From Lachnospiraceae bacterium (GTDB lineage: Bacteria; Bacillota; Clostridia; Lachnospirales; Lachnospiraceae), in contig SVFE01000023.1 of NCBI GenBank assembly GCA_015057055.1, positions 1 through 37,528 of the forward strand: 37,528 nt of DNA, read 5' to 3'. The position numbers and the translations under genes were made by a program. Below are positions 18,258 through 24,495 of this stretch, one piece after another. The notes under the pieces were generated by a model, which saw nothing but the letters and a program-made list of their open reading frames with translations, was not told the DNA's origin and did not search any database. How positions within the stretch are numbered: the first letter of the stretch is position 1; each line of letters starts with the position of its first letter.

Positions 18258-20105
18258 ATGAAACAAACCAGAAACGATATTCGAAACGTAGCCATTATTG
18301 CCCACGTTGACCACGGTAAAACCACCTTGGTGGATGTACTCCTAAAACAAAGCGGTGTTTTTCGGGAAAATCAGGAAGTGGCGGAACGCGTTATGGACTC
18401 CAATGATTTGGAACGGGAACGGGGCATCACGATTTTATCCAAAAACACGGCTGTCACATACAAGGATACCAAAATCAATATTATCGACACGCCGGGCCAT
18501 GCGGATTTTGGCGGCGAAGTAGAGCGCGTACTGAAAATGGTAAACGGTGTTATTTTGGTGGTGGATGCCTTTGAAGGTGCCATGCCCCAGACCAAATTCG
18601 TACTGCGGAAAGCCTTGGAATTAAAGCTACCGGTCATCGTTTGTATCAACAAAATTGACCGTCCCGAAGCCAGAATAAACGAAGTCATTGATGAAGTTTT
18701 GGAATTGTTCATTGATTTGGATGCGGATGAAGCCCAGCTTGACTGTCCCTTTGTCTTTGCCTCTGCAAAATCCGGGTATGCTTCCCTGGATATGGAAAAG
18801 GAAGGCACCGACATGTCTCCTCTTTTTGAAACGATTCTGGACTACATTCCCGCGCCGGAGGGGGACCCGGAGGCAGGAACCCAGATTCTGATTAGTACCA
18901 TTGATTACAACGAATACGTGGGACGAATCGGTGTCGGCAAAGTAGATAACGGCAGCGTGAAGGTAAACCAGGATGTGGTCATCGTCAATGCCCACGACGT
19001 GGCAAAGCAGCAAAAGGTAAAAATCAGTAAGTTATATGAATTTGACGGCTTAAATAAAGTTGCGGTGGAGGAAGCCGGCATCGGCTCCATCGTAGCCATT
19101 TCCGGCATTTCCGATATTCGAATCGGAGATACCTTGTGCGCCCCTGACCATATCGAAGCCATTCCGTTCCAAAAGATTTCGGAGCCCACCATTGCCATGA
19201 ACTTTATCGTCAATGACTCTCCTTTGGCCGGTTTGGAAGGTAAATATGTAACCAGCCGCCATCTGCGCGACCGGCTTTTTAGGGAGTTAAATACAGATGT
19301 CAGCCTTAGAGTCGAAGAAACCGACACCACGGAAAGTTTTAAAGTATCCGGACGCGGGGAGCTTCACCTTTCGGTTTTGATTGAAAACATGCGGCGAGAA
19401 GGCTATGAATTTGCGGTAAGCAAGGCAGAAGTGCTCTATCATTTTGATGAAAACGGCCATAAATTGGAACCCATGGAAATTGCTTATATCGACGTTCCCG
19501 AAGAATTTTCCGGTACCATTATTGAAAAATTAAGCTACCGTAAAGGGGAGCTGCAAAACATCGGTATGGCAAGCGGCAGTTATACCCGTTTGGAATTTTC
19601 CATTCCCTCCAGGGGACTAATCGGGTACCGCGGCGAGTTTATGACCGATACCAAGGGAAACGGTATCATGAATACCATCTTTGACGGATATGCACCTTTC
19701 AAAGGAGAAATCCAATATCGTAAGCAAGGCTCTCTCATTGCCTTTGAATCCGGCGAAACCGTAACCTACGGCCTCTTTAATGCCCAGGAACGCGGCAACT
19801 TATTTGTCGGACCCGGCGAGAAAGTCTATGCCGGTATGGTGGTTGGGGAAAATCCCAAGCAGGAAGACATTGAACTTAATGTATGCAAGAAAAAGCAGCT
19901 GACCAACACCAGAGCTTCCGGCTCCGATGATGCCCTGCGTCTCACACCGCCGAAGATTTTAAGTTTGGAGCAGTGTCTGGAATTTATCGGTACGGACGAA
20001 CTTTTGGAGGTAACCCCAAAAAATCTCCGCATCCGAAAGAAAATATTAGACCCGACCCTCCGGAAAAGAGATGCCATCAGCCGTCAGGCCAAGGGCGGGA
20101 ATTAA
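18258..20105 (+). CDS. typA: Ribosome-associated translational GTPase TypA/BipA
   Basis: The 615-residue GTPase binds the 70S ribosome and assists 50S assembly and stress or cold adaptation. The G domain shows AHVDHGKTT (G1), RERGITI (G2), DTPGHADF (G3), NKIDRPEAR (G4) and SAKSGYASL (G5). EF-G-like domains and the BipA-specific C-terminus (RGNLFVGPGEKVYAGMVVG, NVCKKKQLTNTRASGSDD) follow. ATG 18258 is preferred (GAGG 8 nt upstream, family N-terminus MKQTRNDIRNVAIIAHVDHG). A TTG at 18234 would add eight residues. The stop codon overlaps that of the convergent ClpX-like gene by three bases, with no terminator hairpin visible between them. Confidence 0.97.
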   Translation: MKQTRNDIRNVAIIAHVDHGKTTLVDVLLKQSGVFRENQEVAERVMDSNDLERERGITILSKNTAVTYKDTKINIIDTPGHADFGGEVERVLKMVNGVILVVDAFEGAMPQTKFVLRKALELKLPVIVCINKIDRPEARINEVIDEVLELFIDLDADEAQLDCPFVFASAKSGYASLDMEKEGTDMSPLFETILDYIPAPEGDPEAGTQILISTIDYNEYVGRIGVGKVDNGSVKVNQDVVIVNAHDVAKQQKVKISKLYEFDGLNKVAVEEAGIGSIVAISGISDIRIGDTLCAPDHIEAIPFQKISEPTIAMNFIVNDSPLAGLEGKYVTSRHLRDRLFRELNTDVSLRVEETDTTESFKVSGRGELHLSVLIENMRREGYEFAVSKAEVLYHFDENGHKLEPMEIAYIDVPEEFSGTIIEKLSYRKGELQNIGMASGSYTRLEFSIPSRGLIGYRGEFMTDTKGNGIMNTIFDGYAPFKGEIQYRKQGSLIAFESGETVTYGLFNAQERGNLFVGPGEKVYAGMVVGENPKQEDIELNVCKKKQLTNTRASGSDDALRLTPPKILSLEQCLEFIGTDELLEVTPKNLRIRKKILDPTLRKRDAISRQAKGGN

Positions 20106-21628
20106 CCAAGTTTTTCTCTTACCGTCTTTCCGTCAATGGAAAGACGGGTAAGTTCCCTATTTTCTTCCAATTCATAGATATAGTCATCCAATAATTTTGC
20201 CAGAATCCGATTTAATGATCTGGCACCGATTTTTAATGCAATTGCTTCCTCTGCAATCACATCCAAAGCATCCTCCGTAAATTCCAAAATAACATTTCCC
20301 CCGAGAAGTAACGTATTTTTATATCGCTCCAGGAAGGAATCCTTGGCATGTGTCAAAATGCGTTTTATTTCCTCTTTCCCAATGGGACTAAGCACTGCCC
20401 TTTCGCAGAGGCGTCCCACCAGTTCGGAACGAAAACCATAGGTTTCCAGATGCTTTGCCTTCAGTGTTTCCCTTGTATATGCTTTGGTTTTTTTCTTCAA
20501 AGGCATACCAAAAGAACCGGAAACTTCCTCCGCATCCTTTGCCACAATTTCTTCCAATCCCTCAAATGCGCCGCTACAGATGAACAGAATATTTTTGGTG
20601 TCAATCAAATATTCCCGTTCCGAAGAATAAGGCCCTTCATTCCTGCCTTCCACCTTCATAAGCGTTCCTTCCAACATCCCCAGTAATTGTCCCTGCACCT
20701 CTTCTCCGCAATCCCCCATATGACCTTCTCCTGCCACCTTATCCACTTCATCCAGAAAAACAATTCCGCACTCTGCAATACAGGTCTTCATATTGCTTTC
20801 CTGCAAAAGATCCAAAAGAGCATCCTCCTTATGCTTTCCCTTCCACTGACTTCCTACCACTTCGCTGAAATTAAAGATAGTCAAAGGCACATCCAAAATA
20901 TCTTTTAATCGGCGCATAATCTCGGTCTTTCCGCATCCGGTAGGACCGAGTAAAAGCACATTGGTCTTCACAAGGTTCTTATCGGGATATAAAATGCGCA
21001 AATAATGATTATACACGGCCATGCAAACCATCATTTTGGCTTCCTCCTGACCTATAATATATTCATCCAGATACTCTTTCATTTTTTGCGGGTTATATTT
21101 TTTCAAAAATTTCTCGCATTTTTTTCGAAACTTAAGCATTTGTAATTTTTCGTTTTGCTTCTTCCGGCTTTTGTGACTAAGAAACCGACCGGACTTTTCC
21201 ATTTCCTTATACCGATTGCCAACCACCATACCAATCTTTTCTTCTTTGTCTCCTTCGCAAAACTTTTCAATATCCCAAATCAAAAACTGTCGCATTTCCT
21301 GATAATCTTTTTGTTTCATTTGTTTTAATGCCACAAGACCATCCCTGGATATTGTATCAGACTTAGGGATTTCCTTTACTTTCTCCTCCAACACTTCCAA
21401 TCCCCAACAACGTCTTTCTTTAGCATCATACAAACCACCTGCAAACCATAGTAATACATTATATTTTTCATCCACATACTCATAGGAAAAATAGGCAAGG
21501 CCATGCAATGCACGGTAAAGAACCTCTTCATTGGAAAAGGAAACAACTTCACTTTGATATTTTTCCATAAGTTCCGCTAATACACTCTGAATTTCTGCTC
21601 CGTTACTCATACTTTCCAATCGATACAT
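20102..21628 (-). CDS. ClpX-like AAA+ ATPase B (no zinc-binding domain)
   Basis: The 508-residue protein has a unique N-terminal part (about 1-175, helical, Lys-rich near its end) in place of the ClpX Cys4 domain. A full ClpX-type AAA+ module follows: LDEYIIGQEEAK, Walker A GPTGCGKT (228-235), Walker B VFLDEVD (290-296), sensor 1 region NILFICSGAF, arginine finger in ELVGRLCE (Arg406) and sensor 2 GAR (Arg470). At the pore-loop position of ClpX GYVG it reads QWKG (261-264), keeping an aromatic residue. At the ClpP-docking IGF loop it reads SFGM (372-375). ATG 21628 is chosen because AAGGAG lies 10 nt upstream. It lies 54 bp after paralog A and is probably in one operon with it. It is likely an unfoldase or remodeller; substrate and protease partner are unknown. 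Confidence 0.88.
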   Translation of the reverse strand: MYRLESMSNGAEIQSVLAELMEKYQSEVVSFSNEEVLYRALHGLAYFSYEYVDEKYNVLLWFAGGLYDAKERRCWGLEVLEEKVKEIPKSDTISRDGLVALKQMKQKDYQEMRQFLIWDIEKFCEGDKEEKIGMVVGNRYKEMEKSGRFLSHKSRKKQNEKLQMLKFRKKCEKFLKKYNPQKMKEYLDEYIIGQEEAKMMVCMAVYNHYLRILYPDKNLVKTNVLLLGPTGCGKTEIMRRLKDILDVPLTIFNFSEVVGSQWKGKHKEDALLDLLQESNMKTCIAECGIVFLDEVDKVAGEGHMGDCGEEVQGQLLGMLEGTLMKVEGRNEGPYSSEREYLIDTKNILFICSGAFEGLEEIVAKDAEEVSGSFGMPLKKKTKAYTRETLKAKHLETYGFRSELVGRLCERAVLSPIGKEEIKRILTHAKDSFLERYKNTLLLGGNVILEFTEDALDVIAEEAIALKIGARSLNRILAKLLDDYIYELEENRELTRLSIDGKTVREKLG

Positions 21629-21682
21629 ATTATTTCTCTCCTTTTCCCATGTTTTCATTTGTCCCGTTTTCCGATTACAGCA

Positions 21683-23200
21683 TTACTCCACACATATTAC
21701 TTTTCGTTTTTGTCCGCTTGCTGCTTGAAATAAAGCCGGGCGAACCGCCTCCCTCACCAGGGGAAACAATGCTCTTGCGCCGATTTTATCTTCCGCGGCT
21801 TTATTTGCAATTTCTTCCAAAACTTCTTTTGAAATCTCCAGCTTTGCCCCGCACATCAATTTCACTTCTCTTTCATACCGGCTAATCAGATTATCCTTCG
21901 GCTCGGTTAATATCCGGAGCAAACTTTCCTTCGATAACCGCTCCAAAACAGCGATTTCTCCGATTCTTCCTGCCAGTTCCCGCTTCATTCCGAACTTCTG
22001 CAACACCTCCACGGTTAAATTTTCCTGCGTCATTTCCACTGTTTTCGTTTTAGACAAGCTGCCGGTAAAACCGAAATTTCCTATGTTATTCTTTCTTTCT
22101 TCCTCTTTTTTTATATAATCTTCCACTCCGTCAAATGCACCGCCCAAAATAAAGAGTATATTCGTAGTATCCAGTATTAGTGTGCCTACGGAATGTGATT
22201 TGACCTCTATTCGTCCTCCTTCTATTACGGCAAGAAGCTGCGACTGAAGGGTATCATGACAGTTTTCTCCTCCCCTCGAATAACTCGGAATCAGTATTTT
22301 ATCGAATTCATCCAGAAAAACAATTCCATGCTCCGCTTTTTCCTTGTCTTTTCCGGCCTTAAGATACAATTCCTCAAAAACATCGTCGATATGCTTTCCT
22401 GCACTCTGTGCCGTAGACAAATCCGATATATCCCTACGGCACACCGGCACATCCGCCAATTTTTCCATACAACGCATGAGTTCCGTTTTTCCGCATCCGG
22501 TAGGACCTGCAAGTAAAACCACATTACGAAGAAGCGCTTTTTCCGGATTACGTATTCTCAAATAATGTACGAAAAGGGCTCTGGACAGTGCCTTTTTTGC
22601 ATTTTCCTGACCAATCACATGATAATCCATATAGGCTCTAATTTGTCTCGGAGACCAATGTGCAATCTTTTTTTTATTGATTGCACGCATCAACTCATTC
22701 ACGACTTCCTCTGATGCCGTATAATCGTCACACAACTCATATTCCGAAAGCAATTTATATATTTTTCCATGTGCGCAATTGAGTTCTTCTTCCTCATCTT
22801 CATTATGCGGGTTACAACTGCAAAGATCCGCTCTTATAAAGTAAAGTGAATCAAGAATGCAAACCATTTTCTCAATTTGTTCTTCCGCCTCTTCACCTAG
22901 TAATTTTGATGTAACCTTCTTTAAATCTTTTCCGATTTTCTCAATAACATCGCAAATTCCTGCTGCAAATAATTCATCCTTAACTATCACACGAACTCTG
23001 AGCAAATAACGGATTAGTTCCTCATATTCATAAAGCTGCTCTTCTTCACACCCAAGTCGCAACAGTCGCTTTTCCACATATTTTTTTACTTCCGCTTCCT
23101 TTGCCGGGCGAAATAACTCTATGTTTACCTGTTCTCCGTTTCGCTGTTCTCCGCTTATCCCGTCTTCAATTATCCTTTTATCGTAACAAAAATCTAACAT
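21683..23200 (-). CDS. ClpX-like AAA+ ATPase A (no zinc-binding domain)
   Basis: The 505-residue paralog of the downstream gene has an N-terminal region (about 1-185) that is helical, with a Glu-rich stretch (NEDEEEEL) and scattered Cys, but no ClpX-type zinc site. The AAA+ core has HVIGQENAKKALS, Walker A AGPTGCGKTE (231-240), Walker B GIVFLDEFD (292-300), a sensor 1 region (NILFILGGAFDG), arginine finger in ELAGRIGE (Arg412) and sensor 2 GAR (Arg476). The pore-loop position reads QSAG (265-268), lacking the aromatic residue. The IGF-like loop reads NFGF (375-378). GGAGG lies 6 nt before ATG 23200, and a consensus promoter is at 23266-23294. The pair could form a hetero-oligomer (inference). 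Confidence 0.88.
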   Translation of the reverse strand: MLDFCYDKRIIEDGISGEQRNGEQVNIELFRPAKEAEVKKYVEKRLLRLGCEEEQLYEYEELIRYLLRVRVIVKDELFAAGICDVIEKIGKDLKKVTSKLLGEEAEEQIEKMVCILDSLYFIRADLCSCNPHNEDEEEELNCAHGKIYKLLSEYELCDDYTASEEVVNELMRAINKKKIAHWSPRQIRAYMDYHVIGQENAKKALSRALFVHYLRIRNPEKALLRNVVLLAGPTGCGKTELMRCMEKLADVPVCRRDISDLSTAQSAGKHIDDVFEELYLKAGKDKEKAEHGIVFLDEFDKILIPSYSRGGENCHDTLQSQLLAVIEGGRIEVKSHSVGTLILDTTNILFILGGAFDGVEDYIKKEEERKNNIGNFGFTGSLSKTKTVEMTQENLTVEVLQKFGMKRELAGRIGEIAVLERLSKESLLRILTEPKDNLISRYEREVKLMCGAKLEISKEVLEEIANKAAEDKIGARALFPLVREAVRPALFQAASGQKRKVICVE

Positions 23201-23265
23201 CCGAATCCTCCTGCTATTTAATCACACAGATCTGGTTGTGCTTCACCTTTCATCTTACATACATC

Positions 23266-23294
23266 ACTATACTGCTACATACATACATTGTCAA
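23266..23294 (-). promoter_or_regulatory. Sigma-A promoter of the ClpX-like pair
   Basis: Minus strand TTGACA (23289-23294), 17 bp, TATAGT (23266-23271). The spacer is largely ATGT repeats, and ATGTATGT occurs again just downstream of the -10. The leader is about 60 nt. Confidence 0.8.
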
Positions 23295-23303
23295 CATATA
23301 TTT

Positions 23304-24404
23304 TTATTTTTTTTCATCTAACATTCTTTCCAGTAGTTTTCGTTCTGCATTCCCCGAAGTTTCCTGTTCCCAGATGCGGTCCGGTTCCTCCATCACGTAT
23401 TCCAATGCCCTTAAATAAATCTTATTTTCCGGTAATATCTCTTTTTCCTTTCGTTCCGTCATTATCTGACGACTATAATATTCTAACTCCTCTTCCGTCA
23501 GCATTTCATATTCTTCCGGTCTTTTTTTCCCAAAAGCTTTTTCGTATTTTCTTGCTTTCGCAATTAAGTTTAATACACCGGTGGTAATACCGGATTCACT
23601 CTTTGCTTTTCGGCTGTAATGAAGCAGAATCGAACTGATATTTTTCAGATTGATCGGATTTTTGTTGCGATTACGAAAAACATAATCTTCCCTTTGGTAG
23701 TTTCCGCTTTGCATAAGATAAAGCATATAATCCGTTAAGTAGGATACCGCTACCGGATGAAGCGCCATTTCATTTTCTTTTCCCTTCTCCTTTTGACGCA
23801 GAAATACCAGTTGATTTCGAAACGTAAAATCAGAAAATTTCATTTTACAGATTGTCCTTGGTGCCACACCGCAATAAAAGAGCAAAGCCACCAGCAGCGT
23901 CTCCTGACATTCCAGTTTTTTTACCTCCGGTCTCTTTGTTTTCTCCGCTCCTAAAAACACCTTTTCTAAAAATAACTCCATTTCCTCTTTCTTCGGAAAT
24001 GCATACTCCTTTTTTCCTACTACATGATGAAATTGTACTTTGTCATCTAAAATAGCAAACGGCGAATGATAGTTCTCCCCAAATCTTTGGTAGTATTCGT
24101 TTCGAATATGGGCATTATGATTAATGATATCCTCCATTTTTCGTCCGGTAGAAATCAGAACACGCAAATAAAAATGCCTTGTAGTTTCCGACAATGTCTT
24201 CCCTTCCGGCAGAAAATTTCCATGCTGCTCCATATTCTTTTTCAATACCTTCGCGTCAAAATCATTCAGTTCATAAAGCGGTTTTTGAAAATATTTTTCT
24301 ACCAGCAATATTACCTGACGATAGTTTGTTGCACTACGCTCGCTCAATTGGCTAAGGCTATAACCGATAACCTCATCCAATGTCTCCGGCTCTCTGATTG
24401 TCAT
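23304..24404 (-). CDS. Tyrosine-recombinase-like protein, apparently without catalytic motifs
   Basis: The 366-residue protein has a core-binding-like N-terminal helical region (about 8-100; SATNYRQVILLVEKYF resembles SAM-like phage integrase N-domains). A region then resembles the catalytic domain: ETLLVALLFYCGVAPRTICKM, FSDFTFRNQLVFLRQKEKGK and a region near 240-265 (DYVFRNRNKNPINLKN). Active enzymes have an Arg after the TGLR-type turn, an HxxR block and a final Tyr. Here only Arg183 could be the first, and no HLLRHTFAT-like segment is seen, so it is probably not an active recombinase. ATG 24404 is chosen (GAGG 7 nt upstream). The longer frame would start inside the ilvE terminator. It may be a DNA-binding protein derived from an integrase. 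Confidence 0.7.
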   Translation of the reverse strand: MTIREPETLDEVIGYSLSQLSERSATNYRQVILLVEKYFQKPLYELNDFDAKVLKKNMEQHGNFLPEGKTLSETTRHFYLRVLISTGRKMEDIINHNAHIRNEYYQRFGENYHSPFAILDDKVQFHHVVGKKEYAFPKKEEMELFLEKVFLGAEKTKRPEVKKLECQETLLVALLFYCGVAPRTICKMKFSDFTFRNQLVFLRQKEKGKENEMALHPVAVSYLTDYMLYLMQSGNYQREDYVFRNRNKNPINLKNISSILLHYSRKAKSESGITTGVLNLIAKARKYEKAFGKKRPEEYEMLTEEELEYYSRQIMTERKEKEILPENKIYLRALEYVMEEPDRIWEQETSGNAERKLLERMLDEKK

Positions 24405-24432
24405 TGTTATCCTCGCTGAATGAAAATGTTTT

Positions 24433-24471
24433 AAATCCCTTGAAAACCTTTTGCAAAGTTTCAAGGGATTT
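24433..24471 (-). terminator. Terminator of ilvE
   Basis: A perfect 13-bp stem, AAATCCCTTGAAA (24433-24445) with TTTCAAGGGATTT (24459-24471), begins 25 bp past the ilvE stop. The following tract on minus (AAAACATTTTC) is only partly T-rich. The hairpin immediately precedes the ribosome site of the recombinase-like gene. Confidence 0.75.
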
Positions 24472-24495
24472 GTCATTTACTTTCTGTATGTTTTA

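Follow-up and report, generated by a model that had tools for sequence, protein, structure and literature searches.

What do two adjacent, dissimilar ClpX-type ATPases do in a genome that also encodes a canonical ClpX? The question arises from a 37,528-nucleotide (nt) stretch of Lachnospiraceae bacterium DNA (GenBank assembly GCA_015057055.1, contig SVFE01000023.1; hereafter the window), in which a first-pass annotation made from the sequence alone had noticed a tandem gene pair, here called A and B, and had described each as a complete ClpX-type AAA+ module fused to its own N-terminal domain (N-domain). Our answer, to which we give an even chance, is that B and A form a co-expressed ClpX-derived AAA+ unfoldase that works as a mixed ring and, in its window copy, probably does not feed ClpP.

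Two complete ClpX-type modules

Open reading frame (ORF) A (20102–21658, minus strand) encodes a ClpX-type AAA+ protein with a helical N-domain, and ORF B (21683–23200, minus strand; 505 amino acids (aa)), directly upstream, encodes another whose N-domain is unlike that of A. ORF A spans 518 aa from its first ATG and 508 aa from the ATG at 21628, which is the likely start because it follows an AAGGAG ribosome site (21643–21638) and agrees with the start position of A's relatives. Both frames are free of stops, and re-drawing half of their bases yields 21 and 20 stops on average. B is preceded on the minus strand by a ribosome-binding site, AGGAGG (23207–23212), and by a promoter-like site, TTGACA-17-TATAGT (23266–23294; 11 of 12 consensus positions, the best of 13 sites).

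The annotated coordinates and motifs held: Walker A, Walker B, the arginine finger and sensor 2 are all present in A and in B, and both proteins exceed the Pfam cut-offs for AAA_2 and ClpB_D2-small. Their AAA+ modules align with solved ClpX far beyond chance (E 2.2e-54 for A and 2.5e-49 for B), and ClpX is the closest solved structure in sequence searches and in fold searches of predicted models, the latter run with whole A and whole B models, so that their result lists were filled by the AAA+ domain. These motifs support an active, ATP-driven ring: because each subunit has a full ATPase site, an arginine finger and sensor 2, each would be able to bind ATP and to form a ClpX-type ring, as far as motifs and predicted fold can indicate.

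Neither protein passes the NCBIfam ClpX equivalog (cut-off 359 bits; A 263.9, B 231.2), which the genome's own canonical ClpX passes at 664.7 bits. Nor does either match the zinc domain zf-C4_ClpX in Pfam up to E 0.1, whereas that ClpX does. The part ahead of the AAA+ module measures 189 aa in A, or 179 when counted from ATG 21628, and 183 aa in B, in line with the annotated replacement of the Cys4 domain by two different domains of about 175–185 residues. A and B share 37% identity across B residues 135–489, and the description of the two as clearly paralogous yet quite different stands.

The genome (2.23 Mb, 96% complete) carries its canonical clpX in a tig-clpP-clpX-lon operon on another contig. 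The pair is therefore distinct from housekeeping ClpX, as had been proposed, and neither gene is the genome's only clpX. Reading the ORF translations of at least 180 aa bore out that the window holds no clpP or lon; both are in the operon. A third contig encodes a zinc-finger ClpX of 535 aa (L017 6985–8592), called ClpX2 for this analysis only, which scores 542.8 bits against the ClpX model, above the cut-off, and has a C4 zinc-finger-like start (E 1.3e-5; 25.5 bits, below the Pfam cut-off of 27). About 4.7 kb downstream of ClpX2 stands another B–A pair (484 and 522 aa), so that the window pair is the genome's second. In a scan with a whole-A profile, most genomes of the family had two ClpX-type matches.

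Closest relatives in a fixed order

A phylogeny against true ClpX, built from 59 of 93 available sequences, placed A and B in one clade (support 100/100), apart from ClpX and ClpX2, with B (100/98) and ClpX2 (98/98) as clades of their own and window B within the B clade (100/98). When the three long second-copy rows (window A, window B and the second A of genome G010) were left out, A and B remained separate clades (SH-aLRT 94 and 99), and a topology joining A with ClpX2 apart from B was rejected (p-AU 2e-67). On these trees, the nearest relative of A is B, and vice versa. The rooting of A+B relative to ClpX and ClpX2 has support of 87/79, and A+B may have split from ClpX2 or from an earlier point. 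Window A clusters with G010's second copy (85/73).

The two genes also keep one arrangement. In every one of the 36 A loci counted, the gene immediately upstream on the same strand is B, at a distance of −86 to +29 nt; 35 were recognized by motif class, L048 is a divergent second type, and 7 rows repeat a genome. Outside this count stand the window, whose pore loops fall outside the class patterns; L067, in which antisense ORFs displaced A and B in gene picking, the frames themselves holding both pore motifs; and L056 and L087, both of genome G022, in which A is split across two frames. The split in this genus-wide A of G022 may be an assembly error or a broken gene.

Because A and B are closest relatives and stand side by side in one order, we infer that they work together, most likely in one mixed ring, as co-transcribed subunits of a single ClpX-derived unfoldase.

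Pore loops and the ClpP-docking position

The two subunits differ where ClpX contacts its substrate (coordinates of the pore-1 and IGF positions were worked out by hand from residue numbers). The pore-1 loop of A, GSQWKGKHKE (20825–20854, minus strand), retains an aromatic tryptophan; that of B, TAQSAGKHID (22385–22414, minus strand), has no aromatic. Neither window protein has the GYVG of ClpX, reading QWKG in A and QSAG in B. Across the sampled sequences the motif is YVG in 12 ClpX, YIG in 20 ClpX2, W[KR]G in 32 of 32 A and [YF]RG in 27 genus-wide B; the second B of G010 reads QWGYK. Substrate grip would thus fall chiefly to A's tryptophan loop, with window B as a regulatory or structural subunit. 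Together with the unlike N-domains, such pore-loop differences between adjacent closest relatives fit a mixed ring with divided roles.

The RKH loop is present in 12 of 12 ClpX, 0 of 20 ClpX2, 0 of 32 A and 0 of 29 B. Since this loop is involved in reading the ssrA tag, ssrA-tagged ribosome products are unlikely substrates of the pair. The 20 sampled ClpX2 copies (11 from the genus, 9 from elsewhere in the family) all read P[VI]G[AS][STN][SN]K[NG][AV]MVP at this place.

At the ClpP-docking (IGF) position, window A has GSF (20504–20518, minus strand) and window B FGF (22067–22081, minus strand), and the second A of G010 has QGF. The altered tripeptides point weakly away from ClpP, and because of them we think it probable that the window copy acts by remodelling or dissociating a target and does not feed ClpP. 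An IGF-like [ILVM]G[FY] is kept in 29 of 30 A and 26 of 27 B proteins of the genus-wide pair, which may still feed ClpP. A and B could, then, be an alternative ClpX that brings private substrates to the housekeeping ClpP, as homohexamers or as a mixed ring. The clpP gene in the genome, the motifs kept genus-wide and the FGF of window B would suit this explanation, as would the several ClpX in one genome that part of a report on Myxococcus xanthus describes (PMC11423568); but GSF in window A and QGF in the second A of G010, the lack of RKH and the location of the pair away from clpP speak against it, and we regard it as unlikely.

Some B had been suspected of losing Walker A from pattern misses. 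In L053, L060, L079, L080 and L081, GKS replaces GKT, and in the B of L090 GKT is intact with one other change, so that this suspicion was rejected; the fifth row that the pattern missed, L087, holds one fragment of the divided A of G022.

N-terminal domains without a convincing relative

Searched alone by profile, as had been suggested, the N-domains of A (21092–21628, minus strand) and of B (22652–23200, minus strand) gave no convincing match in Pfam or among Protein Data Bank (PDB) sequences (best E 0.011 and 0.0084 for the A family, 0.0054 and 0.33 for the B family). Window A's N-domain matches the A-family profile from which it had been excluded at E 1.3e-11 (set of 100 sequences). Profile comparison found no link between the A and B N-domains (hhalign probability 12%). 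The predicted model of A is helical ahead of the AAA+ module, with block means of 74–92 (residues 11–70 and 91–140) and 61–64 between; that of B is poor in this region.

Several weak matches were left unused. For the A N-domain these were DUF4240 (E 0.011), REV1_C (0.012), Intu_longin_2 (6 of 26 members, best 0.014) and designed TPR proteins (E 0.0084, residues 108–137), and residues 29–113 of window A matched phrog_36809, whose function is not known, at E 0.0015. For the B N-domain they were a cypovirus domain (0.0054) and ribosomal S7e (0.0072). By eye, the A N-domain looked somewhat like the helical domain found in VirD4/TraG coupling proteins, an idea that was dropped because Pfam scans of 26 A N-domains did not bring up any family of that kind.

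One N-domain per subunit would replace the zinc domain and choose substrates or partners.

A pair of one genus

The first-pass annotation had asked about conservation outside this genome. We found the family adjacent and in one order within the genus, and found none outside it. A profile of the A N-domain, which includes the second-copy rows of the window and of G010, so that matches to those are not independent, has matches in 31 of 35 genus genomes; a short marginal match in G034 (E 9e-4, 35 positions) was taken as chance. Of 397 genomes drawn across the family and spanning 334 genera, it matched 2, which belong to this genus, and none from the other 333 genera; in a draw across the order, the same two among 392; and in one across the phylum, 1 of 329, the window's own. 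The B N-domain profile matched 2 of 329 genomes in a family draw, again both of this genus. Scored with a whole-A profile (three candidates per genome), no family member outside the genus scores above 336 bits, compared with 640–805 for A of the window's genome (G000) and G002. A scan of named records gave 27 loci, 26 titled Lachnospiraceae and 1 Bacillota, with rumen or omasum named in at least 8 and with isolates NK4A179, XPB1003 and AB2028 among them.

A phage origin was considered and rejected: no relative of the A N-domain was found in IMG/VR, where 45 stretches fitted a pattern; 144 phage records match B, none covers 80% of it, and the 8 listed matches begin at residue 127 or later, at 33–36% identity.

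Around the genus-wide pair, a GGDEF-cluster gene is next downstream of A in 31 of 36 counted loci; in the window its place is taken by typA, in convergent orientation. The ends of A and typA overlap head to head by 4 bases (20102–20105). Clustering of neighbours in 42 loci, within flanks of limited length and with names that rest on one member each, gave an HtrA-like protease in 16, a subtilase in 7, a membrane protein in 22, GGDEF in 37 and a MATE transporter in 23. The fullest gene order is HtrA, ClpX2, subtilase, membrane protein, B, A, GGDEF with a Cache domain, and MATE. The membrane protein has a tail beyond its membrane span that looks conserved by eye, and the one or two members tested hit no Pfam family. 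In G014, which lacks the pair, the gene for this protein adjoins the GGDEF gene. The genus-wide pair often lies between the membrane protein (about 600–1280 aa) and the Cache-GGDEF protein (L017 8689–17942 and other loci). A link of the genus-wide pair to cyclic di-GMP or the cell surface is possible.

An extra copy inserted between typA and ilvE

The window pair and a recombinase-like gene together occupy a 4390-bp insertion (20106–24495, typA stop to ilvE stop). The locus was compared with that of 12 relatives. In 8 of them, typA and ilvE point at each other, and their aligned ends are separated by 85–326 bp (G005 103, G013 109, G016 111, G025 85, G003 125, G010 298, G034 326 and G022 222 bp, the ilvE match in G022 ending at residue 267 of 341); ilvE precedes typA on the same strand in G014 and G024 (the latter in pieces), and the two are on separate contigs in G002 and G027. 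Junction sequences in six relatives show the site empty. The intergenic stretch of the relatives, in which hairpin-like sequences were noticed by eye, is replaced by the insertion in the window.

The recombinase-like protein (23304–24476, minus strand; 390 aa) matches positions 18–126 of the 172 of the Phage_integrase profile. The HxLRH box, a catalytic motif of tyrosine recombinases, is absent from it, and it is likely not an active recombinase; it may be a DNA-binding relic or a regulator. At E 1e-5, none of the remaining 34 genomes of the genus has a match to it.

Second B–A pairs occur in 2 of 35 genus genomes, the window's and G010, with a remnant in a third, G003 (L111 5814–9809), which retains N-terminal parts, the AAA+ modules being gone. 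The remnant adjoins a 656-aa relative (36%) of a 757-aa protein of G010, and it includes a relative (36%) of the small protein before B; about 2.6 kb away lies a recombinase-like protein that is distantly related to the window's (25% identity over 279 aligned columns). In G010 the second pair stands elsewhere and is followed directly by the 757-aa protein (L048 3814–6087), which has no Pfam, PADLOC or PHROGs match at E 0.01.

On this evidence, the window pair is a fast-diverging accessory extra copy of the pair carried by most of the genus, and we picture it as an accessory duplicate that would have been inserted between typA and ilvE along with the recombinase-like gene. Its end branches measure 1.31 and 1.35, against a median of 0.18. 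Such lengths, together with the lost pore aromatic of B, the altered docking motifs and the remnant in G003, might instead mark a functionless duplicate in decay, heading for the G003 state in which N-terminal parts alone are left; with both frames intact, the ATPase motifs complete, and ribosome sites and a good promoter match in place, we think this improbable. About as improbable is an accessory module that unites the unfoldase pair and the recombinase-like protein in one task, for instance defence against phages or the maintenance of an element. That the recombinase-like gene adjoins the window pair (and a distant one lies near the G003 remnant), that the site is empty in relatives and that presence is patchy would all suit such a module; yet PADLOC defence models covered no whole protein and matched parts of the AAA+ module at most (DolB best, 49.7 bits, B residues 171–303), the A N-domain is unmatched in IMG/VR, and the recombinase-like protein has no counterpart elsewhere in the genus at E 1e-5.

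Weighing the mixed ring

Several observations count against a mixed ring that bypasses ClpP. First, A–B adjacency could be explained by dosage or by serial action, and the 13 promoter-like sites do not exceed those in shuffles (mean 10.5, standard deviation 3.4). Second, window B's N-domain matches the B-family profile that excludes it only weakly (E 0.0019, set of 100), and window A has modest support inside the A clade (82/67), with long branches. Third, the docking tripeptide of window B, FGF, keeps G and F and is the same as that of the genus-wide B of L037, the sole B exception, so that ClpP docking may persist, and the second B of G010 retains IGF.

For the co-expressed mixed ring we hold to the even chance given at the outset. 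We are doubtful of its fullest form, an accessory, horizontally inserted, ClpP-independent mixed ring with the gripping aromatic in one subunit kind and two recognition domains new within the genus. If true, a natural pair that splits pore-loop and N-domain roles over two genes would be a ready system for studying how pore loops share work. The pair also represents an unfoldase branch with new front domains, outside curated ClpX models, with an extra copy inserted at a separate chromosomal site.

Comparison with known unfoldases

To our knowledge, natural ClpX rings are built from six identical subunits, and the division of work among its pore loops has been studied with engineered linked subunits. 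We found no paper on the B–A pair in the open-licence PubMed Central literature. With ClpX (NF003745/TIGR00382), A and B share the large and small AAA+ domains, Walker A and B, the arginine finger and sensor 2; unlike ClpX, they lack the C4 zinc domain and the RKH loop, fall below the equivalog cut-off, have altered pore-1 loops and IGF tripeptides, and are two distinct tandem subunits whose N-domains have no convincing known relative. They also stay below the equivalog cut-off for HslU, scoring 131.8 (A) and 107.9 bits (B) against TIGR00390 (cut-off 362.45). ClpX2 of Lachnospiraceae also has a ClpX-type module without RKH and shares a gene block with the genus-wide pair, but, unlike A and B, it keeps a GYIG pore loop, an IGF-like motif and a zinc-finger-like start.

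Mitochondrial ClpX, unlike A and B a ClpX homologue proper, is not known to contain more than one kind of subunit. It reportedly acts on ALAS through partial unfolding and so offers a precedent for a ClpX that activates its target (PMC7077987). Within the part of the M. xanthus report drawn on here, ClpX3 differs from A and B as an isolated single gene for which no new N-domain or tandem partner is described; like them, it is an extra ClpX without zinc domain or RKH, and it is deletable, with a role in heat stress (PMC11423568).

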